DNA from: Chamaelirium japonicum
Taxonomy: Eukaryota; Streptophyta; Magnoliopsida; Liliales; Melanthiaceae
Reading direction: 5' to 3'
NCBI GenBank assembly: GCA_947650365.1
Contig: OX393557.1
Coordinates: forward strand, 46,625,979 to 46,689,978
DNA length: 64,000 nucleotides
Below, in pieces: positions 1-45,076 of this stretch (within the stretch, counting starts at the first letter, position 1; every line of letters begins with the position of its first letter). The notes under the pieces were generated by a model, which saw only the letters and a list, made by a program, of their open reading frames with translations, was not told the origin of the DNA and did no database searches. The translations under genes were made by a program, and so were the position numbers.

Positions 1-3000
1 TCTGGCCGGATCAAGAGGAGGAGGGGGGAGAGGAACATCCATGCGAGCAACAGAGAGGAAGGAGAGGATAGTTCGGAGGAGAGTCTAGATGAGGAAGAGG
101 ACGACGAGGAAGAAGACGCCTCCGTGGCCGTACGACTGCCTCCAGCGCCGTCGCCGAACCTGGTGGCGGCGTCATCTTTTCCTCAGAACCACCACCGGAA
201 AATCTTTCCGGTGACGGCGAAGGTTGCTAGGCCACCGGTGATATGGAAGGCAGGGGATGAGATGATCGGCGTCTCCGTACCACGGAGAGCTCGGTCATGT
301 AAGGCACTAGAGAGTCTTTGGATTTGGGGAATCCCCTTTATCCCATCTCCTTTCTTAATTATCTCTTCAGCTTCTAACTCCTTAAATTCGATTTTTTTTT
401 TCTCCCTCTCTTTGGATTGCAGCATCATCTAAGAGATTACAAGAATTCTCTGGAAGTGGGGTTGGCGGCGGAGAGGCAATTCATCGGCAAGCATCCACAT
501 CTCCGTCGAGGCCGAGTCCTCCATCAACTACACCAATTTCGCCATCGTCGTCGAGCGCCTCCGTCCGGAAGAAGATGGTGCGAGTTTCTTCAGCTCATGT
601 ATTCATCCAATTTTACATTTCCGCCCCATTTTTGGCGTTCTGGGTGAGTGACCAAGGTGGTCTCTTTCTGTTTCAGAAGCCAATTAGCGGAACGAAGCAG
701 CGGCCACTAAAGATGTGTAAATCGTCCTCTGTTTCCGAAGATATCGAGATCGAGGTTGCAGAGGTCCTCTACGGTTTGACAAGGCAGTTCCAGCCTGTGC
801 CGAAGCCGGAGATCAACAGGCTCGATTCGAAGGATGCGAATGGATCGAGCAATGAAGCAAGGTCTAGGGTCTCCTCTCCGATCTCGATCTCCCCGGCCCC
901 TCCAACATCACAGCCATCTTTGCCTCCTCCCAATCTGAGCTCCAACACAGCACTGGTGTCGGCCACCGGTGAGTACTGTGGATCACAGATTCACGAAGGT
1001 ATTTCTGATCTATGATTTTTCCGGTCCAGCTCATGATGAGGTTTCTCCCGTCTGTAGCTCCGAAGAGGAAAAAGCCACGCCCCACGAGCCCAGCAAGCCT
1101 ATTAGCTCTTCCGAGCACATCTGGGTCGTCGGCAGCCAAGATGGACTTGGAGCTACCAGCCAAAACGAGGGCCTCCTCGCCGAGATCAGAGAAGAGCAAG
1201 CCATCTCCGGCCATTGAAAATGGCTGTGGCCAGTATGACCTTGGTATTTCCAAGGTTTCTACTATGCCTGTTGATGTTCAGAAAGATTTGGCGAAGCCGG
1301 AGATCAATCTGGCCGCGGATTCGAAGCTTTTGACAGGACAACCAGATGGTCAATCCGATTGCAGGGAGACCAAAGAACTCTTCTTGCTCCCAAAGGAAAA
1401 CCCTGCAACGGACTTGGGCGTCAATCGTGGTGAAACAACCGCCACAGCCACAAAAGAGTAGGCTTCTTGACGACCTATCCTCTATCCTCTTTCTTTTGAG
1501 ACTTTTGTTTGGGGATTTGGTCAATTTAGGGCTCATCAAGTTTTTGTTTGGCTTTAATTTTTAGTGATAATGCAGCTAATAACTCCCGAGAAATGAAATA
1601 CATCATCGATCTAATGGTGGGTACCCTTTCATTACTCTGATTTTCCTTATCTTTTGGGTGATGATGATGGGTATTGAAGGGATCTCTTATTTTTCTGCAG
1701 GCTCCTCCACCAGGGAAGTCATCTCCAGAGACGGAAGGATTGAGGGATTATGCTGCCGGCCACAAGGCTCCAGACGCAGGGATTGAAATGGTGGCTAATC
1801 TCTCTCTAAACATGGTCAGAATTTTCTCCCATGTTCTTGTTTGAATGTATGTTTCCATAATTTTTTTTTTTTTGGGGTATTTTAGGAGCCAAAAGAGAAC
1901 AGTGTGAAAGGAGGGGAGGAGGTGGGGAAAACAGCAAAGCAGGAGGCAGAGGAGATAACATCTGTAGTGAGGAACGCCGAAAATCCGATGCCTCAAGGCT
2001 GTGAGTTGGAGAAACCGATCGACCTGCAAATCGATTTGGACAAGCAGAGCAAAGACGGCAAGGAGCATGCTCCGAAGCAGCAGTCAAAAGCTCCCAGAAT
2101 TGAGCCTAAACTGGAGAAGGCTGCTGGTAATAAATATATTTTTAATTAACTACAGTCTGGTCATTTTGCCCCAATTCAGTGAGAGACCTGATGAATTTCA
2201 CTTCTGAAATTTTTTCCCCAGCTCAATCTGTATCTTTGCCATTGCCAATGCCGATGGCAGGTTGGCCGCCTAGTTTTCCTTCCTTTGGGTGAGCAGCAAT
2301 CCCCCCCCCCCCTTTTTCTGTTTCGCTTCATGTACAGTGTTTCTGTTGATTAGAAGGTTAATCTTCATTTTCACAATCAGGTATATGGGTCAAGTTCCTT
2401 CTCTACAGACAGTTGTTCCCATAGATGGGAGCTCTGGATCGACCAAGGCTCTACAGGTACCACTCTCTCTTGTCTCTTATGTCTTAAGTCTTTAACTCCA
2501 AATTCTCATCAATGGTTTCCGGCATTGCAGCCACCCAATTTCCTTTCATCGCAGCTCCGCCCGAAGCGCTGCGCGACTCATTGCTACATTGCGCACAACA
2601 TACACTACCATCAGCAGCTCGCACGGATGACTTTCTGGCCTGCGGCCACCGGTGCTGCGCCACTGTACGGGAGCAAGCAGTATAATCTCAATGCGGTTCC
2701 ACCCTTGGAATCAACGATCCTCGGAAACTCATTACAAGGGAGCTTCCCTGGTAGGAACTTGGGCCCCATGCAAGACAAGGGTGGCCCGTTGGTTTCTGCT
2801 GCATACACGGGTCACTCCACCAAGGAGAAGCCCTCGGCAGGGAATACCTTAATGGAAGCTTCACAGCGGAAGCAGCTCATGCTCCAGCAGGCGCCGCAGC
2901 CTGGATCGGCAACCAACATGCTTGTAAGCATGCCTCCTCTTATTTTAGGATTATTCTAGGATTCTTCGTTTTAATTCTGAATGTTTTATGTTTCTGTTGG

Positions 3001-4418
3001 TTCTCTTCTGTCTTCAGCAAGCCCCTGCGTTCATTTTCCCTATTAACCAGCAACAGGCAGCTTCGCCTGCTGCTCGTTCTGGATCGTCAAAATCCACCCC
3101 TGGGGCTGCTGTTGGCAATGCCGCACCACCGTCTAGTTCAGCGGCTGGCTCTGGATCCGGTAATCCAGCTACTACTATGAGCTTCAACTATCCGGGTTTG
3201 CCTCCAAGTGAAGCTCAGTACATGGCTATACTGCAGAACAGTGCATATCCATTTTCTATCCCTACACATGCTGGGGCACCCCCACCCTATAGAGGAGGAA
3301 GTGCAGCTCAAGCAATGCCCTTCTTCAATGGGTCTTTCTACTCCTCCCATATGCTCCATCCTTCACAGCTCCAGCAGCATCCATCCCAGCAGCCTTCTCA
3401 TACCCAACAAGGACACCAGAACACGAGCACGTCGAGTGGCTCATCTTCCTCCCAGAAGCCCCCGCAGCAGTCACAGCGGGCACCGGGCGGTGTTGCTGCT
3501 GCCGCCGTTGGGAGCTCCCACATCTTCCCTGCTTCGAAGCAGCAGCGGCAGCACTTGCCACCCAAATGCGAAGCAGGCTTTGACGACAACCCCTCAAACA
3601 CTGATAGTAGGGTCTCACAAGCTCCAAAGAGCAGCTACAGTCACAACATGGCAATGGCGATTCATCCTCAAAACTTTGCATTGCTCTCCCCAGCAACAGC
3701 AGCATTGGGTGGTGGTGGTGGTGGTGGTCATAGTGAAAAGCAGCATCAGCTGCAACCGCAACACCAGCTCACGACATCTCAAGCATTTGCTATGTCCTTT
3801 GCCTCCTTTGGTGGGGCTGCTGTTGGTGCTCCACATCCGGGGCTCGACTTCTCATCCATGGCTCAGAATCATGCATTGTTCCAGAGCCTCCCGGAAGCCG
3901 CCAGACATGGATACCACCAGATCACTGCCACTGCCGCTGCAGCTGCTCAGACAACACCGCACAAGAAGCCTCAACAGCAGACTGCAGAAGATGGGAAATC
4001 TGCAGGCGATTCAATGAATACTATTGTGATGGGCGAGGAGGAGCGAAAGATCACAGCTGTTAGTAAAGTTCCCGGAAATGTTCCTCAGCACTCCCTCACC
4101 TTCTCTCGCCCAAATACTGGTCCTCCTGTTTCCACTGTTCTTGGCAACAACGTCATCGACAGTTCTTCACGGACCTTGAACCTCATCCAGGCACCTGCTA
4201 ATGGCCCCCGGGTATCCAATAGGCCTGCTAGCGCTGCTTCAACAACCTCCGGCTCTGTGACTGCCACAGCCCTTACTCCCAATCCTCAACTCCTGCTGCT
4301 GCAGCAGCAGCAGCAGCAGCAACAGCATCAACAGCAGCTGATCCAACTCCAGAAGCAGCAGCATTCCAACTCTCAGCTCCTGCAGCAACAGCAGCAGCAG
4401 CAGTTGATCACTCTTCAG

Positions 4419-4451
<33 letters not shown>

Positions 4452-5720
4452 TTACAGCTGCAACAACAACAGCTCTTGAACCGCACAAAGCCGGCCGCCC
4501 CTAACAATAGTGCTCCTATGTACTCTGATCGTCTGCCAGCAGGCCCCACCATGGCGAAGTTCCCTCAAGCTCTGGCAGGGTTTCCTCAAGCTCTCATCCA
4601 AAGCACTGGTTCTACCACCCAATCTCCACAGTGGAAGTCGTCATCTACAAGAGCAGCTATACCCGCCCCTGCTGCTTCTACGGCAACATCCTCCGTGAAG
4701 AACCAACACCAACAGCAGCAGCAGCAGCAGCAGCAGCAGAGCAGGAGCCAACACCAGCAGCAGCCTCTTCTCACCACGAGCCATCAAACGCAGATTTCTT
4801 TCGGGAAAGCGGCAGCGCCCACCATGCAGCAGCACCTCGTCGGAGGGAGCAGTAGCAATCCATCCTTGTCTTCTGCGGCCGCCACTGCTGTCGGATCCCC
4901 ACAAAGTTCAGCCTCTAGAAGTGCCGGTGGCAGCCCACGGGCTTCTCCCGGTGTGAAACCAGGCCAGACAACTGTACTGCCCCTACAGCCGCCACCGCAG
5001 CAGCAGCAGACGGGTAAGAGTTCCCCATCGAGATCAACCCCCAAAACATCACCGATGAGCAATCAGAACGCACCCTCCATCCTCGGGCACCCCCACATGA
5101 CCTCCGCTCCGAGCTCAGGCGCCAAACAGCAGCAGCAGCTACAGAAGCAACCGTTTCCTCAAGCTCAGTTCTTTTTCTCCAATGCCTACTTGCCACCTCA
5201 AACTTCTCAGCCCAATGGTGCCTCGGCTGCTGGTTATTACCAAAGACGCCAATCCGAGCTTGCCCCGCTGCAGCAGGTCCAGCCGAGTTCGAGCCCCGGT
5301 TCCGCCCAGACACGAGCTGGTTCCCCGGCCATGTCCGACCCCGCAAAGGCTGCTGCCGCTGCCGCTGCCGCGGCCAACATCAAGGGTGGGATAGCATCGC
5401 CCGGCCTGCTGCCGCACCCTGTCCAGTTTACATCGGCGGCCCAATCTGCATCCGGTGCCCAGCACCCGCACGTGTCGGCGGCCGCTTCCGCTGCCGCCTA
5501 TCCTTACATGCATACCATGCCGCCCGTTGCGGTGAAGCCCGCCGAGCAGAAACCCGCAGCCGGTAAGCATATCCTTTGAAAAAACAACCCCCCCGTTTCC
5601 ATTGAGATTGTGGAGAATAGTGAAGGTGGGGGATTGGAGGTCTCATTTGTGTCGAAAATAACGGTCTTTTGGCCAGGAAATGACAATTTGCATCCGTGCT
5701 GGCAGCCTGACAAGAGATGA
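1..5720 (+). CDS. TIC: TIME FOR COFFEE (TIC) clock regulator, 5'-partial
   Basis: Large nuclear protein of the plant circadian clock; in Arabidopsis TIC acts with LHY and links the clock to metabolism and jasmonate signalling. Exons: 1-298 (open from base 1, start upstream), 423-577, 677-968, 1058-1457, 1565-1616, 1701-1814, 1886-2126, 2222-2288, 2381-2456, 2531-2923, 3018-5562, 5677-5720. All junctions are GT/AG, phases agree, and the sum is 4677 nt (1558 codons plus TGA). Recognisable TIC blocks: a basic then acidic N-terminal stretch, KAGDEMIGVSVPRRARS, ASVRKKM, EIEVAEVLYGLTRQ, YIIDLMAPPPGKSSPE, RPKRCATHCYIAHNIHYHQQ, FWPAATGAAPLYGSK, and the tail AGNDNLHPCWQPDKR. Exon 11 is one 2.5-kb exon rich in Gln, Ser, Ala and Pro with several poly-Gln runs. 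The length is close to Arabidopsis TIC (about 1550 aa), so probably only a short N-terminal part is missing. No frameshift or internal stop is seen. The exon 4 donor (GTAGGC) is the least certain junction; it is chosen because it alone gives the right phase. Confidence 0.93.
4294..5145 (+). repeat. CAG/CAA runs coding poly-Gln in TIC exon 11
   Basis: Near-pure CAG triplet runs lie at about 4297-4335, 4381-4404, 4418-4452, 4710-4740 and 5128-5140, interrupted by a few CAA, CAT and CTG codons. They code Gln tracts of up to about 12 residues. Being triplet runs they can change length without breaking the frame, so they are likely to be polymorphic. Poly-Gln is a known feature of TIC-family proteins; any effect of length on clock function here is inference. 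Confidence 0.85.
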
Positions 5721-14009: not shown

Positions 14010-14240
14010 GTCAAGTGAGGAATAGGGTGTGAATTCAAGTTTTTAGAAAGTGGGGTGTAAATCAAATTTCGACATTATTGTGGGGTTGTAAGTCAAAAAA
14101 AAACCAAAGAAAAAGTGTTTGTCGCTTCAGTGACTTCTATCACTGCACGCTCGCTGCACTGCAGATCCACTGCCTCGGGCGCTCTCTCTCTCTCTCTCTC
14201 TCTCGCTCTCTCTCTCTGTGGAGTCGCTACTCCCGATCCA
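14010..14240 (+). promoter_or_regulatory. AXR4 upstream region and 5' UTR
   Basis: Contains a MITE fragment (GGGGTTGTAAGTCAAAAAA near 14080) and then a (CT)n pyrimidine tract at about 14183-14218 directly before the ATG. CT-rich leaders are common in plant 5' UTRs. No clear TATA box is seen, so the start of transcription cannot be set. Confidence 0.45.
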
Positions 14241-25791
<11,551 letters not shown>

Positions 25792-33561: not shown

Positions 33562-34658
33562 TGTATACGCAAAAAAAAAAAATTTGGTCATATTTATTGC
33601 ACGCATGAAGAATACAAAGCCGAGACCCGGGGGCTCAGAGGTGGTGAGCCGGGTGCGGCAAAAATTTGATCAGGAGATTATGGGAGAGATCCTCTAGAGG
33701 GTTCGCTTGATCCACGTCTCCATGTTACTTCGTACGAGAGCTTTGGAGGGGTTGCCCAAGACAGAGGTCTTTATAAAATTTTGGGTTTCTTGAGAAATCG
33801 AGTGGTTTTGCCTTTGCTTTTGTCTCTTCTGTGCTTCGTACTTTCTAGCCTAGGAGGGCATTCGGCATTGTTTGCTCGATCTTCGCATCTCCCTCAGCTC
33901 TTGCTAGACCTCATGTTCTTGATCGTTGGTTCATGACGTCGATTATGCTTTTAGCATCGTCTTTGTCTTTGGCTTGGCTTGGCTTGCATTTGACGTGGCT
34001 CTGGCTTTTGAGGCACTTTGGCGCTTGCGTTTGAAGATGGGAGGCTTACGGTGCTTTAGTTCTTTCGGACTTCGCATCGTATCGGCTATACATTGCTTTT
34101 GCTCGTATTTGTTATAGTTCGTTGGCTTTGGCACGTGCGTTGCTTTGGCACGGACTTTACCGGTGCTTTTCTTTGGCTTTGACCATGGCTTTGGTTTGAT
34201 CTTCTCCTTGAACGACGATGGCGATGTCTTTAAGACTTCTTTATTCTTTCGGCTTCCTCCTTTTGGGGATGAAACTTTGGCAACGATGACTGTGGCGTCA
34301 GTTTTGGCTTCTCTTCTTCTTCGGATTTTTTTTACTTTTTCGGAGTTGAAGACTTCTTTTGAAGATGGTGGGTGTTGCATTGACCTCCGTGCGATGGGTA
34401 TAGCATTGGCTTTTGTTAATGAAGACGACAGGTATAGCACCGATCTCCGTATGGCGGTTGTAGTGTCAGTTTTTGTTGAAGACAACAGGTGTAGCACCAG
34501 TTTTGGGCCTTCTTCTTCAAGCTTTCTTCTTCGTACGTGGAGTCGGGGCTTTGTTGAAGACAACGGGGTGATGCCAACTTCGATTTTCTTCTCTGGCCTT
34601 TGCTTTTGGCATCTTCGGAGTTGATGATGATCGTTGGAGACAGCATGGTGATGTCAAC
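33562..34658 (-). mobile_element. Old LTR copy 1, first part
   Basis: Ends (minus strand) in TATACA next to the primer site. It aligns by eye over its whole length with 43059-44190, at roughly three quarters identity (shared CTTTCGGACTTCGC, GGCTTTGGCAC). It is cut at 34658 by the young retrotransposon and resumes at 42846 (TSD TCAAC at 34654-34658 and 42846-42850). Confidence 0.68.
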
Positions 34659-35271
34659 TGTGGGTGCAAAAATTGTACCGGACCGGATCAGAGCGGCATG
34701 GGCCCGCGCAACGGTCCAAGTGGGTAAGCCCGCCCGGGTTCATGGGCCCACTCTACGGGGCTCGCAGATCAAGCCCTCCCCCTTATTGGGCCCGAACAAC
34801 GGCCCAATAAGGGCCCAGCAAGGAGGCCCAGAACCAGTGCCACGTCATCAGCGCCACGTCATCACTGCCATATCGGGCACGTGCCTATACTATAAAAGGA
34901 CCCCCAAGGCATCTAGGAACGGGGGTTGGCCATTCAATCAGAGGAGGAGGATCCCAGAGCAAGTGCTAGAGCTCTATTCTCCCCACCTTGTTCTCTTCTA
35001 GTTGCTCCGTGCAACCCCACTGTACGAAGCTTCTCTCGGCCTGTCGAGAGAACACTCAACCCTTTATATTCAAATTATAGTGAAGATCAGGTGGCACCTC
35101 TCGCCCGGAGACGTAGGTCGTAAGGCCAAACTCCGTCACCAATCCTTGTGTCATCGCTCTTTATTCTCTCTATCTATTCTCCCATCTCTTTAACTCTACA
35201 AACCATCCACATTCAATCAAGGCTGTGGGGCGGGGTTCCCGATCAAGGCGGCTCGGAAATTTCCCCCCACA
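34659..35271 (+). repeat. 5' LTR of the young element
   Basis: 613 bp, TG...CA. It has a TATA box (TATAAAAGG at 34891) and several CCACGTCATCA-type repeats just upstream of it (34837-34865), which look like plant ACGT-core regulatory boxes. By eye it differs from the 3' LTR at three positions. Confidence 0.93.
34891..34899 (+). promoter_or_regulatory. TATA box of the 5' LTR
   Basis: CTATACTATAAAAGGACCC, about 30 bp upstream of the likely transcript start. The same box is in the 3' LTR at about 42465. Two ACGTCAT motifs lie just upstream. Confidence 0.7.
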
Positions 35272-35276
35272 ATCTT

Positions 35277-35294
35277 TGGCGCCGTCTGTGGGAT
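35277..35294 (+). other. Primer-binding site
   Basis: TGGCGCCGTCTGTGGG, five bases after the LTR end. TGGCGCC-starting sites are used by some plant Ty3 elements; the exact tRNA was not checked. Confidence 0.7.
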
Positions 35295-35411
35295 ATCGAT
35301 AGAGGTCTTACCCACACCTCTACCGACTCCTATTCAGCTTGTGGTGATGAGCCACAAGTCCTCCTCCAAATCAACCTCAACGCCTTCATCACGCCGACAT
35401 CAACACGCTCG

Positions 35412-35858
35412 ATGGTGAAGGCCAGCACCAACCCACCAAAGGCGGGTGCTGATCGGACAATCGACGTGCTAATCGAAGAAGAACAAGAAGTCTCGGTTGC
35501 AACCAATCGAAGAAATATTTATAAGCGACTGGGGCCAAAAGGAAGTCATCCGGGAAGCCACAGCAATCGGCAGGACCCACCATTCCCGAGGCAACAATCT
35601 GGCAAAGAGCACGCCACCCAAGGGGACAACGATCTAACTACATACGAAATTTCGGCTGCTGATTTCCAGCTGTTGAACCTTCTCAAGAGGAACGCAGCCC
35701 TCGAGCAAGAGAGGGATTCCCTAAAGAAGGTAGCTGGAAGAGCGGGGGTTGTGGCCCATAACTCTCCAACTGCTGATGAAGACCAACCAAAGACCTTCGA
35801 TTCTGCCCATTCAGGTCGGAAGCTCGAAGGCCATTCGGCTACGCCCTCTCGAGGCTAA
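35412..35858 (+). CDS. Short gag-leader-like ORF of the retrotransposon
   Basis: 148 codons from ATG 35412. Polar, Lys/Arg/Glu-rich, with a possible coiled-coil piece (LLNLLKRNAALEQERDSL near residues 85-105). The position just after the primer site and the composition fit the N-terminal leader of a plant Ty3 gag. It has no capsid or zinc-knuckle region. The frame is open upstream into the LTR. The last 25 or so codons already run into repeat array A, so the natural end of the gene is lost. Confidence 0.55.
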   Translation: MVKASTNPPKAGADRTIDVLIEEEQEVSVATNRRNIYKRLGPKGSHPGSHSNRQDPPFPRQQSGKEHATQGDNDLTTYEISAADFQLLNLLKRNAALEQERDSLKKVAGRAGVVAHNSPTADEDQPKTFDSAHSGRKLEGHSATPSRG

Positions 35859-37060
35859 AGTCCGATAAAAAGGCTCCTGGCAACCCAGTTCAATCAAAGA
35901 CCTTCGATTCCGCCCATTCAAGTCGGAAGCTCGAAGGCAATTCGGTTACGCCCTCTCGAGGCTAAAGTCCGACAAAAAGGCTCCTGGCAACCCAGGTCAA
36001 CTAAAGACCTTCGATTCCGCCCATTCGAGTCGGAAGCTCGAAGGCAATTCGGCTACGCCCTCTCGAGGCTAAAGTCCGATAAAAAGGCTCCTGGCAACCC
36101 AGGTCAACTAAAGACCTTTGATTCCGCCCATTCAAGTCGGAAGCTCGAAGGCAATTCGGCTACGCCCTCTCGAGGCTAAAGCCCGATAAAAAGGCTCCTG
36201 GCAACCCAGGTCAACCAAAGACCTTCGATTCCGCCCATTCAAGTCGGAAGCTCGAAGGTAAGTCGGCTACGCCCTCTCGAGGCTAAAGTCCGATAAAAAG
36301 GCTCCTGGCAACCCAGGTCAATCAAAGACCTTCGATTCCGCCCATTCAAGTCGGAAGCTCGAAGGCAATTTGGTTACGCCCTCTCGACGCTAAAGTCCGA
36401 CAAAAAGGCTCCTGGCAACCCAGGTCAACCAAAGACCTTCGATTCCGCCCATTCAAGTCGGAAGCTTGAAGGCAATTCGGCTACGCCCTCTCGAGGCTAA
36501 AGTCCGATAAAAAGGCTCCTGGCAACCCAGGTCAACTAAAGACCTTCGATTCCGCCCATTCAAGTCGGAAGCTCGAAGGCAATTCGGCTACGCCCTCTCG
36601 AGGCTAAAGCCCGATAAAAAGGCTCCTGGCAACCCAGGTCAACCAAAGACCTTCGATTCCGCCCATTCAAGTCGGAAGCTCGAAGGTAAGTCGGCTACGC
36701 CCTCTCGAGGCTAAAGTCCGATAAAAAGGCTCTTGGCAACCTAGGTCAACCAAAGACCTTCAATTCGGCCCGTTCAAGTCGGAAGCTCGAAGGCAATTCG
36801 GCTACGCCCTCTCGAGGCTAAAGACCGATAAAAAGGCTCCTGGCAACCCAGGTCAACCAAAGACCTTCGATTCCGCCCATTCAAGTCGGAAGCTCGAAGG
36901 CAATTCGGCTACGCCCTCTCGAGGCTAAAGTCCGATAAAAAGCTCCTGGTAACCCAGGTCAACCAAAGACCTTCGATTCCACCCATTCAAGTCGGAAGCT
37001 CGAAGGCAATTCGGCTACGCCCTTTCAAGGTGAAAGTCAGATAAAAATGCTCCTAACAAT
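35775..37060 (+). repeat. Tandem array A, 107-bp unit, about 12 copies
   Basis: The marker CTCCTGGCAACCCAGG recurs at 35874, 35981, 36088 and on to about 37050 with 107-bp spacing. Each unit has two inverted repeats: CCTTCGA...TCGAAGG and CCTGG...CCAGG. Copies are very similar, apart from the last two. Confidence 0.92.
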
Positions 37061-37139
37061 CCAGGTCAAGCTAAACTATCAACTATACTTATCCGAGGCA
37101 ATGAGAATAAGTCCAAGGCAGGCGTCGTCGCTTTGACAT

Positions 37140-38260
37140 GCACCAAGTTCAAGGAGACATCCTTGACACTCGAAGACAAAGTCCGAGGCGACCAATGCCT
37201 CGGCACTCTACAAGCCCAAGGCCCGGTCCTTGGCACCCGTAGACAAAGTCCGAGGCGGCCAATGCCTCGGCACTCTACGAGCCCAAGGCCCAGCCCTTGG
37301 CATTCGAAGACAAAGTCCGAGGCGACCAATGCCTCGGCACTCTACAAGCCCAAGGCCCAGCCCTTGGCATTCGAAGACAAAGTCCGAGGCGACCAATGCC
37401 TCGGCACTCTACAAGCCCAAGGCATAGCCCTTGGCATTCGAAGACAAAGTCCGAGGCGACCAATGCCTCGGCACTCTACAAGCCCAAGGCCTAGCCCTTG
37501 GCATTCGAAGACAAAGTCCGAGGCGGCCAATGCCTCGGTACTCTACAAGCCCAAGGCCCAGCCCTTGGCATTCGAACACGAAGTCCGAGGCAACCAATGC
37601 CTCGGCACTCTACAAGCCCAAGGCCTAGCCCTTGGCATTCGAAGACAAAGTCCGAGGCGGCCAATGCCTCGGTACTCTACAAGCCCAAGGCCCAGCCCTT
37701 GGCATTCGAACACGAAGTCCGAGGCGACTAACGCCTCGGCACTCTACAAGCCCAAGGCCCAGCCCTTGGCACCCGAAGACAAAGTCCGAGGCGACCAATG
37801 CCTCGGCACTCTACAAGCCCAAGGCCTAGCCCTTGGCACTCGAAGACCAAGTCTGAGGCGACCAGCGCCTCGGCACTCTACAAGCCCAAGGCCCGGTCCT
37901 TGACACCCGAAGACAAAGTCCGAGGCGACCAATGCCTCGGCACTCTACAAGCCCAAGGCCTAGCCCTTGGCACTAGAAGATAAAGTCCGAGGCGACCAAT
38001 GCCTCGGCACTCTACAAGCCCAAGGCCCAGCCCTTGGCACTCGAAGACAAAGTCCGAGGCGACCAATGCCTCGGCACTCTACAAGCCCAAGGCCCGGTCC
38101 TTGGCACCCGTAGACAAAGACCGAGGCGGCCAATGCCTCGGCACTCTATGAGCCCAAGGCCCAGCCCTTGGCACTCGAAGACAAAGTCCGAGGCGACCAG
38201 CGCCTCGGCACTCTACAAGCCCAAGGCTCAGCTCTTGGCATTCGAAGACAAGGTCCGAGA
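37140..38260 (+). repeat. Tandem array B, 67-bp unit, about 16 copies
   Basis: The unit starts AGTCCGAGGCGACCAATGCC and repeats every 67 bp. Each unit holds CCGAGGC...GCCTCGG and CCAAGG...CCTTGG inverted repeats. Because 67 is not a multiple of 3, all frames are read in turn and long open frames arise by chance. Confidence 0.92.
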
Positions 38261-38755
38261 CGTCGTCGCCGACGTATTGGCATTCGATCAAAAGTCCAAG
38301 CTTAGTCTTGTCACTCAGGTCTAAGCATTAGATTGTCAATGGCCATCACCTTTTCTCGACGACTAACGGTTCCAAACCGGTCAGGGGGTGGTCGGTCTGA
38401 CTCTGTCATTGCGTGTCTCCACACTGGTGCAGTCGACGGTGGGTAACACGGGATAAAATGGTGCTTCCTTGATCCTGGCCAAGTCAACACCCTCGCGTGA
38501 CCGTAGTACCTGGTGAATACAGTAACCAGGTACGGTAATACATTGGGTGAAGACCGGCTGGCCATCATGCGGCGTCATCCTAGATTATCTCTAAGAAACC
38601 CCCTCGAATGTAGCATTGTCCCTCGCCGACATCCTCGCGCACCAGCGTTTTACCGAAAAAGTGTCGGTTTCAAAGGGGGCTAAAATTCGAAAAATACACT
38701 ATTTTCAATACCGACACTTTTTGGTCTTTTCTAAGCAGCCCCAATAATAGGGTGT
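38261..38755 (+). other. Unique spacer between arrays B and C
   Basis: About 500 bp without tandem structure. It contains an imperfect AAAAAGTGTCGGTTTC / GACACTTTTTGG inverted pair near 38655-38725. No coding region recognised. Confidence 0.5.
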
Positions 38756-40260
38756 CGGCACCAACAAGCAGCCCCCCCCCCTCGGTTTCGCACAAAAACC
38801 GAGTAGGGAAGAGGTGACGGCACACCATCAGCAGCACACCCCTCGGTTTCGTCAGAAAACTGAGAGGGGGTATGTGTCGGCATCTACAAGCAGCCCTCCC
38901 TCGGTTTCGCAAAAAAACCGAGTGGGGAGGGGATGACGGCACACCATCAGCACACCCCTCGGTTTCGTCAGAAAACCGAGAGGGGGTGTGTGTCGGCACC
39001 AACAAGCATCCCCCCCTCGGTTTCGCACAAAAACCGAGTGGGGAGGGGGTGACGGCACACCATCAGCACACCCCTCGGTTTCGTCAGAAAACCGAGAGGG
39101 GGTGTGTGTCAGCACCAACAAGCAGCCCCCCCTCGGTTTCGCACAAAAACCGAGTAGGGAAGAGGTGACGGCACACCATCAGCAGCACACCCCTCAGTTT
39201 CGTCAAAAACCGAGAGGGGGTGTGTGTCGGCATCAACAAGCAACCCCCCCTCGGTTTCGCACAACAAACCGAGTGGGGAGGGGATGACGGCCCACCATCA
39301 GCACACCCCTCGGTTTCGTCAGAAAACCGAGAGGGGGTGTGTGTCGGCACCAACAAGCAGCCCCCCCTCGGTTTCGCACAAAAACCGAGTAGGGAAGAGG
39401 TGACGGCACACCATCAGCAGCACACCCCTCGGTTTCGTCAAAAACCGAGAGGGGGTATGTGTCAGCATCTACAAGCAGCCCTCCCTCGGTTTCGCAGAAA
39501 AATCGAGTGGGGAGGGGATGACGGCACACCATCAGCACACCCCTCGGTTTCGTCAAAAAACCGAGAGGGGGGTGTGTCGGCGTCAACAAGCAGCCCACCT
39601 CTCGGTTTCATCAGAAAACCGAGAGGGGGATGTGTCGGCATCAACAAGCAGCCCACCCCTCGGTTTCGTCAGAAAACCGAGCGGGGGGGTGTGGCGGCAT
39701 CAACAAGCAGCCCACCCCTCGGTTTCGTCAGAAAACTGAGAGGGGTGGTGTGTCGGCATCAACAAGCAGCCCATCCCTCGGTTTCATCAGAAAACCGAGA
39801 GGGGGGGTGTGTCGGCGTCAACAAGCAGCCCACCCCTCGGTTTCGTCAGAAAACCGAGAGGGGAGTGTGTCGGCGTCAACAAGCAGCCCACCTCTCGGTT
39901 TCGTCAGAAAACCGAGAGGGGGATGTGTCGGCGTCAACAAGCAGCCCACCCCTCGGTTTCGTCAGAAAACCGAGAGGGAGGTGTGTCGGCATCAACAAGC
40001 AGACCACCTCTCGGTTTCGTCAGAAAACCGAGAGGGGGATGTGTCGGCGTCAACAAGCAGCCCACCCCTCGGTTTCGCCAGGAAACCGAGAGGGGGGTGT
40101 GTCGGCGTCAACAAGCATCCCACCCCTCGGTTTCGCCAGAAAACCAAGAGGGGGGGGTGTGTCGGCGTCAACAACAGTCCACCTCTCGGTTTTGCCAGAA
40201 AACCGAGAAGGAGGACGTATCGACATCAACACGCAAACCCCCCCCCCCTCGGATTTGTCA
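38756..40260 (+). repeat. Tandem array C, ~58-bp hairpin unit
   Basis: Each unit holds CCTCGGTTTCGTCAG followed by AAAACCGAGAGG, a perfect stem with a short loop, and a spacer with GTGTCGGCATCAACAAGCAG. To about 39590 two unit types alternate (a 116-118 bp period, GCACAAA and GTCAGAA loops); after that a single type repeats. About 25 stems in all. Open frames through the array (for example 39220-40296) are by-products of the repeat. Confidence 0.92.
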
Positions 40261-40309
40261 AAACTGAGAAGGGGGGGGGGGTCTTGGATTCAATAGCAAC
40301 TCTGCCGAA

Positions 40310-40660
40310 CCCGTCACGTGTGGAGAAAGGAAGGAGAGAGAGAGGGGAAAAGGCCGGCTCTCTCACCAAAGTCCAAAGCAAAGAGGGAGAGAGAAGCTGC
40401 TCTCTCGGACCGAAAGCAAAGAAAAGAAAGAAAGAGAAGCAGCTCTCTCGGACCGAAAGCAAAGAAAAGGAAAGAGAGAGAGCGCAACTCTCATCAAAGA
40501 AAGGAAAGAGAGAGAGAGAGAGAGAGAGAGCGATCTTCTCTCATCAAAGAAAGGAAAGAGAGAGAGCGCAGCTCTCATCAAAGAGAGAGAGAGCGATCTT
40601 CTCTCATCAAAGAAAGGAAGGTAAGGGGAGTAGAAGGAAAGAGAGGGAGGGCGATCCAGC
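40310..40660 (+). repeat. Purine-rich GAAAGAGAGAG block
   Basis: Repeats of CTCTCATCAAAGAAAGGAAA and AGAGAGAG units at about 40318-40640. Low complexity; it separates array C from the captured gene and could be the decayed 5' UTR of that gene or simple-sequence growth. Confidence 0.65.
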
Positions 40661-40734
40661 CGGGAGGGCCGCCCGCAGCTCCCCTCTCCGATCCGATCGG
40701 GGCCAGCCCCCCCGGCCCACGACCGGTCGCCGAC

Positions 40735-41658
40735 CGCCCTGCTCCACCGACTTCGGCCGCCCTTCTCTCCCCCAACCTCTCCATCCCCACAGTCGACCTC
40801 TCCCTCCCCCGCACCCTCGCCGTCGACCTCGTCCGCGACGCCGCCCGGGACTGGGGCTTCTTCCAGGTCACCAACCACGGGATCCTCCTCCCGGTCATCG
40901 ATGCCACCGTCTCCGCCGTCCGATCGTTCCACAAGCTCCCCACCGCCCACCGTTCCAGCCGCTACTCCCACGTCCTCGCCGGCGGTGTCTCCTATTCGTC
41001 CAACTTCGACCTGTTCCGGTCCGCGGCTGCCAGCTAGCGGGACACGCTGCAGGTCAAGATGGGCCCGATTCGGCCGGACCCGAAGCGGATCCCGGAAGTG
41101 TGCCGAGAGGAGCTGCTGGCGTGGGACGAGCACGTGACCAGTGTGGGGCGGCGAATTTCAGGGATGTTGTCGGAGGGGCTCGGGGTGGACCCGGGCCGAC
41201 TAAAGGGGGCCACCTGTCTGGAGGGGAGGTCGATGGTTTGCCACTATTACCCCCCGCGCCCTGAGCCGGATCTGACGGTGGGGACAGCAGATCACACGGA
41301 CCCTGGTGTGCTAACGGTGCTGATACGGGATCACGTCGGTGGTCTGCAGGTCAAGCGAAGGGGAGACAACGGGGAGACCTCTTGGGTCGATGTCAAGCCC
41401 ATGCCCGGGGCCTTGGTCATCAACGTTGGTGATCTCCTACAGATATTTTTGAATGATGAGTACAAGCGTGTGGACCATCGGGTGGTGGCCAATTCTCGTC
41501 AAGAAGCAAGGGTTTCAATTGCCGTCTTCTTTGTCCTTGGAAATAGGGGGGAGTCTGAATTCTACGGTACTTTGTCGGAGCTTGTTTCACCTGATAAGCC
41601 ATCCTGATATCGGAAGTTCACGATGGAGGAGTTCATGGGTTTCTTCTTCAGCAAGGAG
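40735..41658 (+). pseudogene. Captured 2-oxoglutarate/Fe(II) dioxygenase (ACC-oxidase-homolog type)
   Basis: One continuous frame matches the plant soluble 2-ODD family of ACC-oxidase homologs: NLSIPTVDLS, ARDWGFFQVTNHGI, SYSSNFDLF, KMGPIRPDPKRIPEVC, HTDPGVLT, GALVINVGDLLQI and FTMEEFMGFFFSKE. The iron ligands are kept (His 41293-41295, Asp 41299-41301, His 41476-41478), as is the Arg-x-Ser that binds 2-oxoglutarate (41509-41517). Two stops break it: TAG at 41035-41037, where the family has Trp, and TGA at 41605-41607, where a basic residue is likely. The N-terminal ~45 residues and the start codon are missing, and the tail runs into array D at 41659. There is no intron, although family genes usually have two, so capture through a spliced mRNA is likely. 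Expression could come only from the LTR. Confidence 0.88.
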
Positions 41659-42115
41659 TCTCGGCGTCCTCTCGGTCGGAAAACGCACTGCTTCCTCTGA
41701 AACGCCCACACACAAAACCGAGACTTTTTGGCTCGCACCAAAAGGGTCTCGGTGTTGGCAGAAGGAAAAGGGGTCTCGGCGTCCTCTCGGTCGGGAAATG
41801 TACTGAGTTTTCGGAAACGCCCACTCGCAAAACCGAGACTTTTGGCTCGAACCAAAAGAGTCTCGGCGTCGGCGGAAGGCAAAGGAGTCTCGGCGTCCTC
41901 TCGGTCGGAAAACGCACTGCTTCCTCTGAAACGCCCACACACAAAACCGAGACTTTTTGGCTCGCACCAAAAGGGTCTCGGTGTTGGCAGAAGGAAAAGG
42001 GGTCTCGGCGTCCTCTCGGTCGGGAAATGTACTGAGTTTTCGGAAACGCCCCCTCGCAAAACCGAGACTTTTGGCTCGCGCCAAAAAGGGTCTCGGCATC
42101 GGCGGAAGAAGGCTC
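41656..42115 (+). repeat. Tandem array D, ~115-117-bp unit, 4 copies
   Basis: TCTCGGCGTCCTCTCGGTCG recurs at about 41657, 41774, 41888 and 42003. Each unit holds a long stem: CCGAGACTTTTGG facing CCAAAAGAGTCTCGG. It shares the AAAACCGAGA core with array C, on the other side of the captured gene. Confidence 0.88.
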
Positions 42116-42218
42116 TGCTAATACGAACCGCGGCACCGACAACCCTCGCCAACCGCGCCAGGATCCTAAAGCGTTTGCACCTTGGAATCCCAGCCGACCC
42201 AGGTGGTCTTGACCCGAC

Positions 42219-42229
42219 TGGGAGGGGGT
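42219..42229 (+). other. Polypurine tract
   Basis: GGGAGGGGG directly before the 3' LTR (four bases between), the expected plus-strand primer. Confidence 0.75.
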
Positions 42230-42232
42230 AAC

Positions 42233-42845
42233 TGTGGGTGCAAAAATTGTACCGGACCGGATCAGAGCGGCATGGGCCCGCGCAACGGCCCAAGTGGGTA
42301 AGCCCGCCCGGGTTCATGGGCCCACTCTACGGGGCTCGCAGATCAAGCCCTCCCCCTTATTGGGCCCGAACAACGGCCCAATAAGGGCCCAGCAAGGAGG
42401 CCCAGAACCAGTGCCACGTCATCAGCGCCACGTCATCACTGCCATATCGGGCACGTGCCTATACTATAAAAGGACCCCCAAGGCATCTAGGAACGGGGGT
42501 TGGCCATTCAATCAGAGGAGGAGGATCCCAGAGCAAGTGCTAGAGCTCTATTCTCCCCACCTTGTTCTCTTCTAGTTGCTCCGTGCAACCCCACTGTACG
42601 AAGCTTCTCTCGGCCTGTCGAGAGAACGCTCAACCCTTTATATTCAAATTATAGTGAAGATCAGGTGGCACCTCTCGCCCGGAGACGTAGGTCGTAAGGC
42701 CGAACTCCGTCACCAATCCTTGTGTCATCGCTCTTTATTCTCTCTATCTATTCTCCCATCTCTTTAACTCTACAAACCATCCACATTCAATCAAGGCTGT
42801 GGGGCGGGGTTCCCGATCAAGGCGGCTCGGAAATTTCCCCCCACA
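42233..42845 (+). repeat. 3' LTR of the young element
   Basis: 613 bp. The three differences from the 5' LTR seen by eye are a T/C near 34715/42289, an A/G near 35054/42628 and an A/G near 35128/42702; all are transitions. No indels. Confidence 0.93.
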
Positions 42846-43058
42846 TCAACTCCGAGCCTTCTTCTCCAAGCCTTCTTCTTTGTGCGAGGAGTTGAAAATT
42901 TGATCTTCCTGTGCATGGCCTTTACGTTGATGAGGACTTTGATAAGCTAAGCTGTTCTCTTGGGATGCGCTTGCTCGTGCCTCGTGAAGCCTTTGATCGT
43001 CGAGCGTTGGAGCCTTTTTGTCTTCAAAGCCTCACATTTTCTTCAATCTTCGACCTTT
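42846..43058 (-). mobile_element. Old LTR copy 1, second part
   Basis: Continues copy 1 after the insertion. It aligns with about 44190-44400 of copy 2 (shared GATGAGGACTTTGATAAGC-like and CGTGCCTCGTGAAGCC). At its high-coordinate end it abuts the end of copy 2 and lacks the part matching 44400-45076, so copy 1 is truncated. Confidence 0.62.
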
Positions 43059-45076
43059 GATGTTGTAGCGCTGGAAAAGGTACGAGTCGTCTTTATTGCG
43101 CAAAATCATATTACAAGTGTGGCCGGGACCCGGGTGGCTCGGGTGTAGCGAGTCCGGGTTGCGGCGAGTTTTGATCAGGGGATTGTGGGAAAGATCTTCT
43201 GGAGGATCCCTTTGATCCGCGTCTCCACGTGGTGTTCGTGTGAGAGCTCTGAAGGGGTTGCCCAGGACAGGGGTCTTTACAGGGTGAGGGTTTTGGAGAG
43301 GCTAAGGAATGCCCACCGTTGCTTTGTCCCTTCCGTGCTTCGCGCTTTCTCGACTAGGGGGTTTTTCGGCTTTGTTCCTCGGTCTTCGTGTCTTCCTCGC
43401 TCCTTGCTTGACCTCGGCGTCCTTGATCGTCGGTTCGCGGCGTCGATCGTGCTTTTGGCATCGGCTTTAGCTTCGGCTTTTTTTGGCTTTGGCTTGGCTT
43501 CGGCGTGGCTCTGGCTTTTGCTTTGCTTCGGCGCTTGCAATTGGACATAGCCGGGAGAGACTTGCGATGCTTTCGTTCTTTCGGACTTCGCGTCGTATCG
43601 GCTAGAACGTGCGGTGCTTTTGCTCGTGGTCGGCGTAGTCGCTTGGCTTTGGCACTTGCGTGCTTTGGCGCGGGCTTTACTGGGGCTTTGCTTTGGCTTC
43701 TTGCGTTGGCTTTAGCTTCAGCGTCAACTCGGTCTTCTTCTTTGAACGACATGGGCTACTTCTCCGGTGCTTCGACGGTTTGTGGGTCGGTTGGACTTCT
43801 CTTCTTCTCCGGGCTTCCTTGGCGTGATCGGAGTCGAAGGATGCTTTCAAAGATGGTGGGGGTAGGACCGATATCCGTGCGATGGTTGTAGTGTCGGCTT
43901 TTGTTGGTGAAGACGGCGGGGGTAGCGACGGCCTCCGTGCGATGGTTGTAGCGTCGGTTTTTGTTGGTGAAGACGGCGGGGTAACGACGCTTCAGACGGT
44001 CTGCTCCAGGCTTTCTTCTTCGTGGATTGCACAGGCGTTTGTTGAAGACGACAGGGTGATGACGCTTCGTTTCTCTCCTCCGGGCTTTGGAGCTTGATCG
44101 GGATCGAGGATTTGTTGGAGCCGATGGGGTAGTGCCGCTCCGAGCTTCTTCTCCGGCCTTTGCTTCTGGCGTCTTCGGAGTCGAAGGGTCTTCTTCTTCG
44201 AGCTTTCTTCTTCGTGCACGGAGTCGAAGTCTTGATCTTCGTGTGCAAGGGTCTTCACGTTGATGAGGGCTTTCAGTGGACTAAGCCGATCCCTCGGGAC
44301 AGGCTTGCCCGTGCCTCGTGAAGCCTTGGGTCGATGAGGAAGCGTCTCCTCTTCTGCAGAGCTCCCGCGCTTCGTCTTCAGTCTTCAACCATCGACCCCT
44401 TGAATCTTCCCCCACCCCCTCTATTTATAGGCAAAGGGGAGGGGAGAGATATGGGAACTTTTTAATTTTAAATCCCTTTTGTATCTCTCTCATAATTACC
44501 CAGGATTTATTCATCCATTGATGAGGGGATAACATTTATTTGTTTTCCTTTTCTGGCGAGGCAATTATGGCTGGATTTCGCACACGAAATCGATGGCGAT
44601 CGGGCGCTTATTCTTGTGCGTCGGATCGAGGGATCGGCGCAGATCCGTGTGTGTGCAGACGTCATACGCAGCCTCCCCCCGCGCATGGCGGTAGTTCTTT
44701 CCTTTTCTTTCTTTTCTTTCCTTTTCTTTTCTTTCCTTTTCTTTTTTTTCCTTTCTTTTCTTTCCTTTTCTTTTCTTTCCTTTCTTTTCTTTTTTCTTGC
44801 AGGGCCGGCCGGCCCCCCATGGGGTTCGGGTCCTAGTAGGGCCGGGCCCCCATGGGGTTCGGGTCTTAGTAGGGCCAGCCCCATGGGGTTCGGACCCTAG
44901 TAGGGGCCGACCCCCCCTTTAAGCGTGGGGTCCACTCCTCTTTTGCTGGGTGCGAATCGGGTCCAGGTCCGCACTGGTGCGTGCAAGTCGGGTCCAAGTC
45001 GAAGCGCGCGTCGGGTTCGCATCCGCGTTGGCACACGCAAGTCAGGTCCGGGTCATATGAAATTCGTGTGTCTACA
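43059..45076 (-). mobile_element. Old Ty3-like LTR copy 2 (about 2.0 kb)
   Basis: On the minus strand it starts TGTAGACACACG (45076 downward) after the polypurine tract TTGAGGGGGCATT (about 45077-45089) and ends CGCTACA at 43059. It contains a T-rich (CTTTTC)n run at about 44695-44795 and GGGCC-rich repeats at 44800-44920. Its TATA box is not obvious. Confidence 0.6.

Follow-up and report, generated by a model that had tools for sequence, protein, structure and literature searches.

A young LTR retrotransposon family of Chamaelirium japonicum with host gene pieces in one interior slot

How does a long terminal repeat (LTR) retrotransposon in which no pol is visible come to hold part of a plant dioxygenase gene among tandem arrays, and does it belong to a family that has moved recently? 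The question was raised by a 64,000-nucleotide stretch of Chamaelirium japonicum DNA (assembly GCA_947650365.1, contig OX393557.1, positions 46,625,979 to 46,689,978, forward strand), referred to here as the window. A complete LTR element occupies positions 34659-42845 of the window (Table 1). An initial annotation, made from the sequence alone, had described 613-bp LTRs with three mismatches, a TCAAC target-site duplication (TSD), a primer-binding-site (PBS)-like sequence, a polypurine tract (PPT), arrays A to D and a 2-oxoglutarate-dependent dioxygenase (2-ODD) sequence, all of which were confirmed. The explanation judged likely is that the element is a young pol-less member of a family mobilized in trans, whose copies keep host gene pieces at a single position, the slot separating array C from array D, which is loaded and reshuffled by template switching. 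Five observations carry it: an architecture shared among copies, slots specific to subfamilies, a spliced 2-ODD, a piece of an IQD gene that replaces part of the 2-ODD, and a change of relationship between copies at an LTR border.

The window element and its family

The window LTRs run from TG to CA and differ by three transitions with zero gaps. At a rate of 1.3e-8 this divergence places insertion about 0.19 million years (My) ago, in keeping with the recent movement proposed at the outset. No pol domain was found in the window open reading frames (ORFs) scanned (three, plus two antisense), and a tRNA scan of the window found zero. Queried by itself, the gag leader matched no Pfam domain, and none of 483 candidates proved a homologue at E ≤ 0.01. 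The PBS was assigned by its position and by what we take to be its type, and the Ty3 assignment is likewise presumed, from gag and that PBS type. Two-unit folds of each array contained hairpins (folded without a shuffle control, the chance level being unset). Comparison of the LTR with plasmids, of the PBS pattern with viral contigs and of the LTR pattern with prokaryote contigs gave zero matches, as expected for a plant element.

The assembly that contains the window (1.52 Gb, 3253 contigs) was searched with the LTR, giving 42 matches with the best 40 of 3670 first-look candidates scored. Eighteen stretches were fetched around LTR matches and yielded 15 LTR-paired copies, or 16 including the window copy. 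L021 (two LTRs in opposite orientation) and L022 (overlapping the L013 region) were excluded from the counts, and L026 was included despite an incomplete 3' LTR. Counts for the LTR, gag and tail queries, and for those from three slot contents designated t2, t4 and t6, are lower bounds (40 scored of 3670, 3195 and 2167, and of 455, 734 and 213, respectively).

The 16 copies sit at different genomic places and follow a common plan in constant order (LTR, leader, A, B, C, slot, D, LTR), with the B-C segment and the tail. Exact 5-bp TSDs flank 13 of them (the exceptions are L011, L018 and L026), the PPT motif GACTGGGAGGGGGTAAC is present in 16/16, and the first 24 nt after the LTR are identical in 12/16. 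Mismatches between paired LTRs number 0-11 per copy, corresponding to 0 to about 0.7 My at 1.3e-8. The genome search thus returned a multi-copy, gene-carrying family, as had been suggested. Nor do all full-length copies carry gag-pol: 15 of the 16 span 7.3-9.2 kb, and their interiors consist of the shared segments, the slot and, in five copies of the family, gag. The sixteenth (L019/L020, C3:50350532-50369171) is a 2-ODD+IQD copy of 18.6 kb in which arrays C and D are separated by a long additional sequence that probably represents a nested insertion.

In five copies (L009, L013, L016, L018 and L019/20) the leader is extended by a further segment of about 1442 nt, which is absent from the window copy. 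The leader frame in L009 extends into a 646-codon ORF with a Retrotrans_gag domain (2.7e-8), which bears out the label "gag leader", and the segment is open in the three copies inspected as ORFs (L009, L016 and L018). The element had been classed as a large retrotransposon derivative (LARD). This holds in so far as pol was not found and the window copy lacks the gag segment, but the strict definition misfits the family because 5/16 copies hold the rest of gag. A Ty3 partner, also proposed, was not recovered. Five of the 40 scored gag places were read past gag, and 5/5 enter array A; these reads gave no reverse transcriptase by which the lineage could be placed.

Origin and decay of the 2-ODD cargo

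The 2-ODD piece of the window matches the Pfam domains DIOX_N (1e-11) and 2OG-FeII_Oxy (1.6e-29). It aligns without gaps to residues 49-345 of a 357-aa date-palm homologue of 1-aminocyclopropane-1-carboxylate (ACC) oxidase, with 73% identity and two in-frame stops, and its closest relatives are in date palm and other monocots. A donor gene with 95% identity lies on C10 of the same genome, confirming the capture of a host sequence. Exon 1 of the donor ends at CTCCTACAG/GTACGG and exon 2 begins at CTGGCAG/ATATTTTC. The element reads CTCCTACAG/ATATTTTT, the donor's 3.7-kb intron being absent exactly at the splice junction, and spliced RNA was therefore the source of the 2-ODD.

The piece begins at about residue 46 of the donor and ends 13 codons before the donor's end, at AAGGAGT; neither the donor start codon nor its stop lies within it. 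It differs from the donor at 42 of 873 nt (14 synonymous and 28 non-synonymous, two of the latter being the stops) with zero indels. When a paralogue was used as outgroup (660 nt), the element branch received 23 changes and the donor branch 4. The mix of substitutions was not distinguishable from neutral (p 0.21 overall; for the window branch, 15 non-synonymous and 8 synonymous, p 0.35). The element branch corresponds to 2.7 My at 1.3e-8, an estimate that copying errors would make too old. About two changes are expected since the window copy inserted, and most of the decay therefore predates that insertion, in the element lineage or a precursor. Ten of 75 near-invariant positions are changed, where two divergent real homologues reach 9/78 and the median among homologues is 2. 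The letters H-x-D, H and R-x-S, which we take to be the catalytic motif, persist in the translation by eye. Judged from its sequence, the window 2-ODD is a decayed fragment and not a working gene. The statement that the element carries a host dioxygenase accordingly stands for the host sequence and fails for an intact gene; the cargo appears to be decaying, with no visible coding role in the window copy. On the element branch, positions 40783-41442 of the window showed 11 G-to-A against 3 C-to-T changes (p 0.057), a bias too weak for use.

In L009, L013 and L019, about 556 nt of an IQD gene take the place of 307 nt of the 2-ODD; they comprise the end of the coding sequence and 3' untranslated region (DUF4005, 4.1e-13). 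The left join has CACC and the right join GGGG, each common to both partners (by eye). Over 446 bp the IQD piece is 98.4% identical to its donor on C1, and for this reason it is probably younger than the 2-ODD. It carries a 111-bp deletion across the coding end and a GA/CT hairpin. A donor intron was considered as the cause of this gap and rejected when the donor was read, the missing stretch covering the coding end and the hairpin. The piece spans zero introns and therefore does not distinguish an RNA from a DNA source.

Of 563 sites that could be compared, the 2-ODD sequences of the window and L009 differ from the donor at the same 8, and have a further 13 and 12 differences, respectively, of their own; the comparison was made without an outgroup, and about three of the eight could be donor changes. 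The right-hand join to the array is also common to the two (FFFSKESRRPL in the window, FFFSEESRYPL in L009). These sequences are most simply read as the result of a single 2-ODD capture, with the IQD swap occurring later in one line of descent.

Slot contents, probable exchange between copies and competing explanations

Seven slot classes were distinguished among the 16 copies: 2-ODD (1, the window), 2-ODD+IQD (3: L009, L013 and L019), GT47-like (4: L014, L023, L025 and L026), HD-ZIP IV (1: L018), and three in which the sequence was not named, t2 (3: L010-L012), t4 (3: L015, L017 and L024) and t6 (1: L016). When full slots were compared, they were 98-99.8% alike within a subfamily and differed between subfamilies, with short stretches at the slot flanks common to different subfamilies. 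Cargo is in sense orientation in the named cases. The idea of a family defined by its 2-ODD is thereby modified: the family carries genes, and the 2-ODD is one of several slot cargoes. The HD-ZIP IV piece of L018 matched 821 proteins at E ≤ 0.001 among 1992 candidates and aligns to residues 186-384 of the best of them, date-palm ROC5 (64%, 2.3e-67). The GT47-like name is weak because its match (E 0.0028) falls below the Pfam cut-off. The LTR tree places the 2-ODD copies together, and likewise the t2 copies and the GT47-like copies.

Each named cargo was also used as a genome query. The 2-ODD gave 32 matches (24/24 candidates scored). It is contiguous in the window and at C9:22.5 Mb, split by 13 kb in a C12 copy and joined to the IQD piece in one element at 8 places; the remaining places comprise seven with only 83 bp, a single 56-bp place and, on C10, two host genes. 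Ten of the 11 element places (the window, L009, L013, L028 and L031-L036) adjoin array D, the tail and an LTR, the C2 place being unfetched, and the dioxygenase is thus present in other related elements. The seven 83-bp places (95-96%) are C56:734063, C12:22039123, C10:8673536, C9:18353546, C3:53366754, C1:43893921 and C7:11549773, and may represent a further slot type. The IQD piece gave 22 matches (21/21 scored), consisting of the eight 2-ODD+IQD places, the donor on C1 and weaker paralogues. For HD-ZIP there were 13 matches (11/11 scored). Four copies are at 100%, another four at 93-96% and a single one at 76%, and C19 has two host-like places at 69-72%; three of the four 100% copies were checked and all adjoin D, tail and LTR. 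The GT47-like piece gave 39 matches (35/35 scored), 13 at 98-100% and nine at 87-89%, and the three copies checked adjoin the same segments.

Modules also appear to have been exchanged between copies. The window element and L028 differ at 4 of 1476 nt from the 2-ODD to the PPT (99.7% identical) and then at 38 positions in the adjoining LTR, a change at the LTR border with a Fisher p of 8e-17. The window LTRs are 99.5% like those of L019, the B-C segment is closest to L010 (97.2%), and the leader is at most 91.2% like that of any of the other 15 copies. On these comparisons either the window copy or L028 is a mosaic, as template switching between packaged RNAs would give, and the mosaic partner is probably the window copy. 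LTR trees are therefore unreadable as trees of whole elements. L045 (C9:45214956) has an HD-ZIP cargo 100% like that of L018 and an LTR 92.6% like the window's, compared with about 97% in L044 and L046; it is a possible second LTR exchange.

Under the explanation judged likely, reverse transcriptase copying a packaged element RNA would use short homologies to jump to a host mRNA packaged alongside and then to return, thereby loading the slot or replacing its contents. Switching among element RNAs would exchange LTRs and interiors. An autonomous element would supply pol, and Gag too for the gag-less copies.

Several points weigh against this account. No autonomous partner was found among the gag places read. 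The copies were picked by likeness to the window LTR (best 40 of 3670), and the sample leans to close relatives. LTR groups do not match slot type throughout, the t4 copies being scattered in the LTR tree. Parts of the t2, t4 and t6 sequences recur at many other places (71-96%), and these contents may be older repeats rather than genes. An HD-ZIP donor above 76% was not found (11/11 candidates scored), and the GT47-like piece matches elsewhere at 100% over 80-87 bp only. The intron test exists for the 2-ODD cargo only.

A more specific form of the proposal makes the C-D interval a cargo port, in which the arrays and purine tracts would act as pausing or landing sites, host mRNAs would be sampled systematically and the catches would be spread by recent bursts. 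This is put forward tentatively; on that reading the family would be a retrotransposon counterpart of the Pack-MULEs.

Capture could instead have occurred at the DNA level, an existing processed 2-ODD retrogene and other gene fragments being inserted, recombined or repaired into the element and then amplified, with no switch of reverse transcriptase to mRNA. Neither the IQD nor the HD-ZIP piece bears the trace of a removed intron: a deletion accounts for the gap in the former, and the nearest HD-ZIP host gene seems intronless in the cargo span from the spacing of matches. Short shared sequences at joins arise in DNA repair too. However, every fetched place with a 2-ODD match longer than 83 bp, outside the two C10 host genes, adjoins array D, tail and LTR (10/11 places). 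The IQD piece replaced 2-ODD sequence and did not merely split it, the named cargoes lie in sense, and the LTR change between the window and L028 points to recombination at the RNA level. DNA-level capture is considered unlikely.

Serial loss, in which an ancestral slot held a long string of host gene pieces and the subfamilies retained different parts, would fit the short stretches common to slot flanks and the seven places that retain only 83 bp of 2-ODD. It is regarded as very improbable: the interruption of the 2-ODD by the IQD piece speaks against it, as do the unequal donor identities (98.4% and 95%), from which entry times probably differ. Retention of the 2-ODD for a product or RNA that serves the element or the plant, suggested by the absence of indels and by the persisting motif letters, is hardly credible given the in-frame stops, the neutral-like substitutions, the missing donor start codon and last 13 codons and, a weak point in view of the real homologues, the changed near-invariant positions.

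Related systems and other features of the window

The window element has the marks of an LTR retrotransposon (paired TG...CA LTRs, TSD, PBS-like site and PPT), and the family those of dispersed, independent copies. LARDs of the Dasheng type have a PBS and a PPT, lack pol and must move in trans; in the strict form they have no coding domain, large LTRs and a conserved non-coding interior. The present family resembles them in its PBS, PPT, lack of detected pol and proposed movement in trans, and differs in the gag segment of 5/16 copies; its LTRs measure 613 bp. The arrays and B-C segment are shared among copies, whereas the slot is not.

Bs1 of maize is an LTR element with pieces of three host genes (PMC13317346). 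The present family is similar in having an intron-free 2-ODD between LTRs with an intron-bearing donor in the same genome, and pieces of more than one host gene (2-ODD and IQD) in one element. It differs in being a young, multi-copy family whose copies hold different cargoes at the same slot, with a tandem array on either side. That LTR elements can capture spliced host mRNA has already been described (PMC13317346, PMC5664825, PMC4717578). About 72% of LTR-driven retroduplications of pepper NLR genes lie in elements without gag or pol coding (PMC5664825), genes captured by LTR elements in rice often decay (the rice and sorghum paper PMC3726574), and two donor genes in one element were reported for none of 425 maize elements with gene fragments (PMC2774510). 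These cases likewise place host sequence within LTR elements; a fixed slot, cargo-for-cargo replacement and module exchange set the present family apart. Retand elements have a long 3' interior, which holds tandem arrays in about half of cases; their LTRs measure 315-1194 bp, and some clusters are non-autonomous (PMC11963269). The window element shares the tandem arrays in the 3' interior, but pol was not found in it and its host cargo is in sense. A scan of three antisense ORFs of L009 and two of the window gave no antisense TRP28 domain (PF04195).

No title in the literature searched, in which subscription papers were thinly covered, described a fixed cargo slot in LTR elements. What is unusual is that a young family has one slot with replaceable cargoes, that a single element combines two donor genes (Bs1 is an older case) and that the donors are extant and allow dating. 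Gene capture by LTR elements has mostly been described as separate events. Here, alternative cargoes at one position, two extant donors and unequal likeness to them give a time series of captures. The family lends itself naturally to testing where and how plant elements switch template, and may show how LTR elements acquire and swap host genes.

Table 1. Features of the window element (window positions; TRF, Tandem Repeats Finder)
Feature	Position	Strand	Remarks
TSD, left copy	34654-34658	.	TCAAC
5' LTR	34659-35271	+	613 bp; related LTRs elsewhere in genome
Leader	35272-35783	+	with N-terminal part of gag
PBS-like site	35277-35293	+	TGGCGCCGTCTGTGGGA
Array A	35784-37069	+	107 bp x 12; TRF
Array B	37161-38259	+	67 bp x 16.4; TRF
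B-C segment	38271-38740	+	non-repeated; present in 16/16 LTR-paired copies
Array C	38752-40244	+	58 bp x 25.5, alternatively 116-bp unit; TRF
Purine-rich tracts	40318-40655	+	three, left side of slot
2-ODD piece	40756-41658	+	captured, spliced; ACC-oxidase-homologue type
In-frame stop TAG	41035-41037	+	in 2-ODD piece
In-frame stop TGA	41605-41607	+	in 2-ODD piece
AAGGAGT	41653-41659	+	right junction; common to donor gene and array D; micro-homology, by eye
Array D	41653-42108	+	about 115 bp x 4; TRF
Tail segment	42116-42232	+	with PPT
PPT	42220-42228	+	GGGAGGGGG; four bases 5' of 3' LTR
3' LTR	42233-42845	+	613 bp
TSD, right copy	42846-42850	.	TCAAC

Other features were noted elsewhere in the window. 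A glutamine-rich ORF of 863 codons (2988-5579) has no Pfam match and presumably resembles the plant clock gene TIME FOR COFFEE. A second ORF (14115-15455) carries an alpha/beta hydrolase domain (Abhydrolase_1, 1.4e-7). Positions 19164-24343 contain a cluster of long, pure TA runs (131 bp at most), together with direct and inverted repeats (79-86%) and 2.6 copies of a 167-bp unit. The stretches at 33619-34179 and 43122-43699, on either side of the element, are 75% alike, and the element may therefore have inserted into an older repeat.

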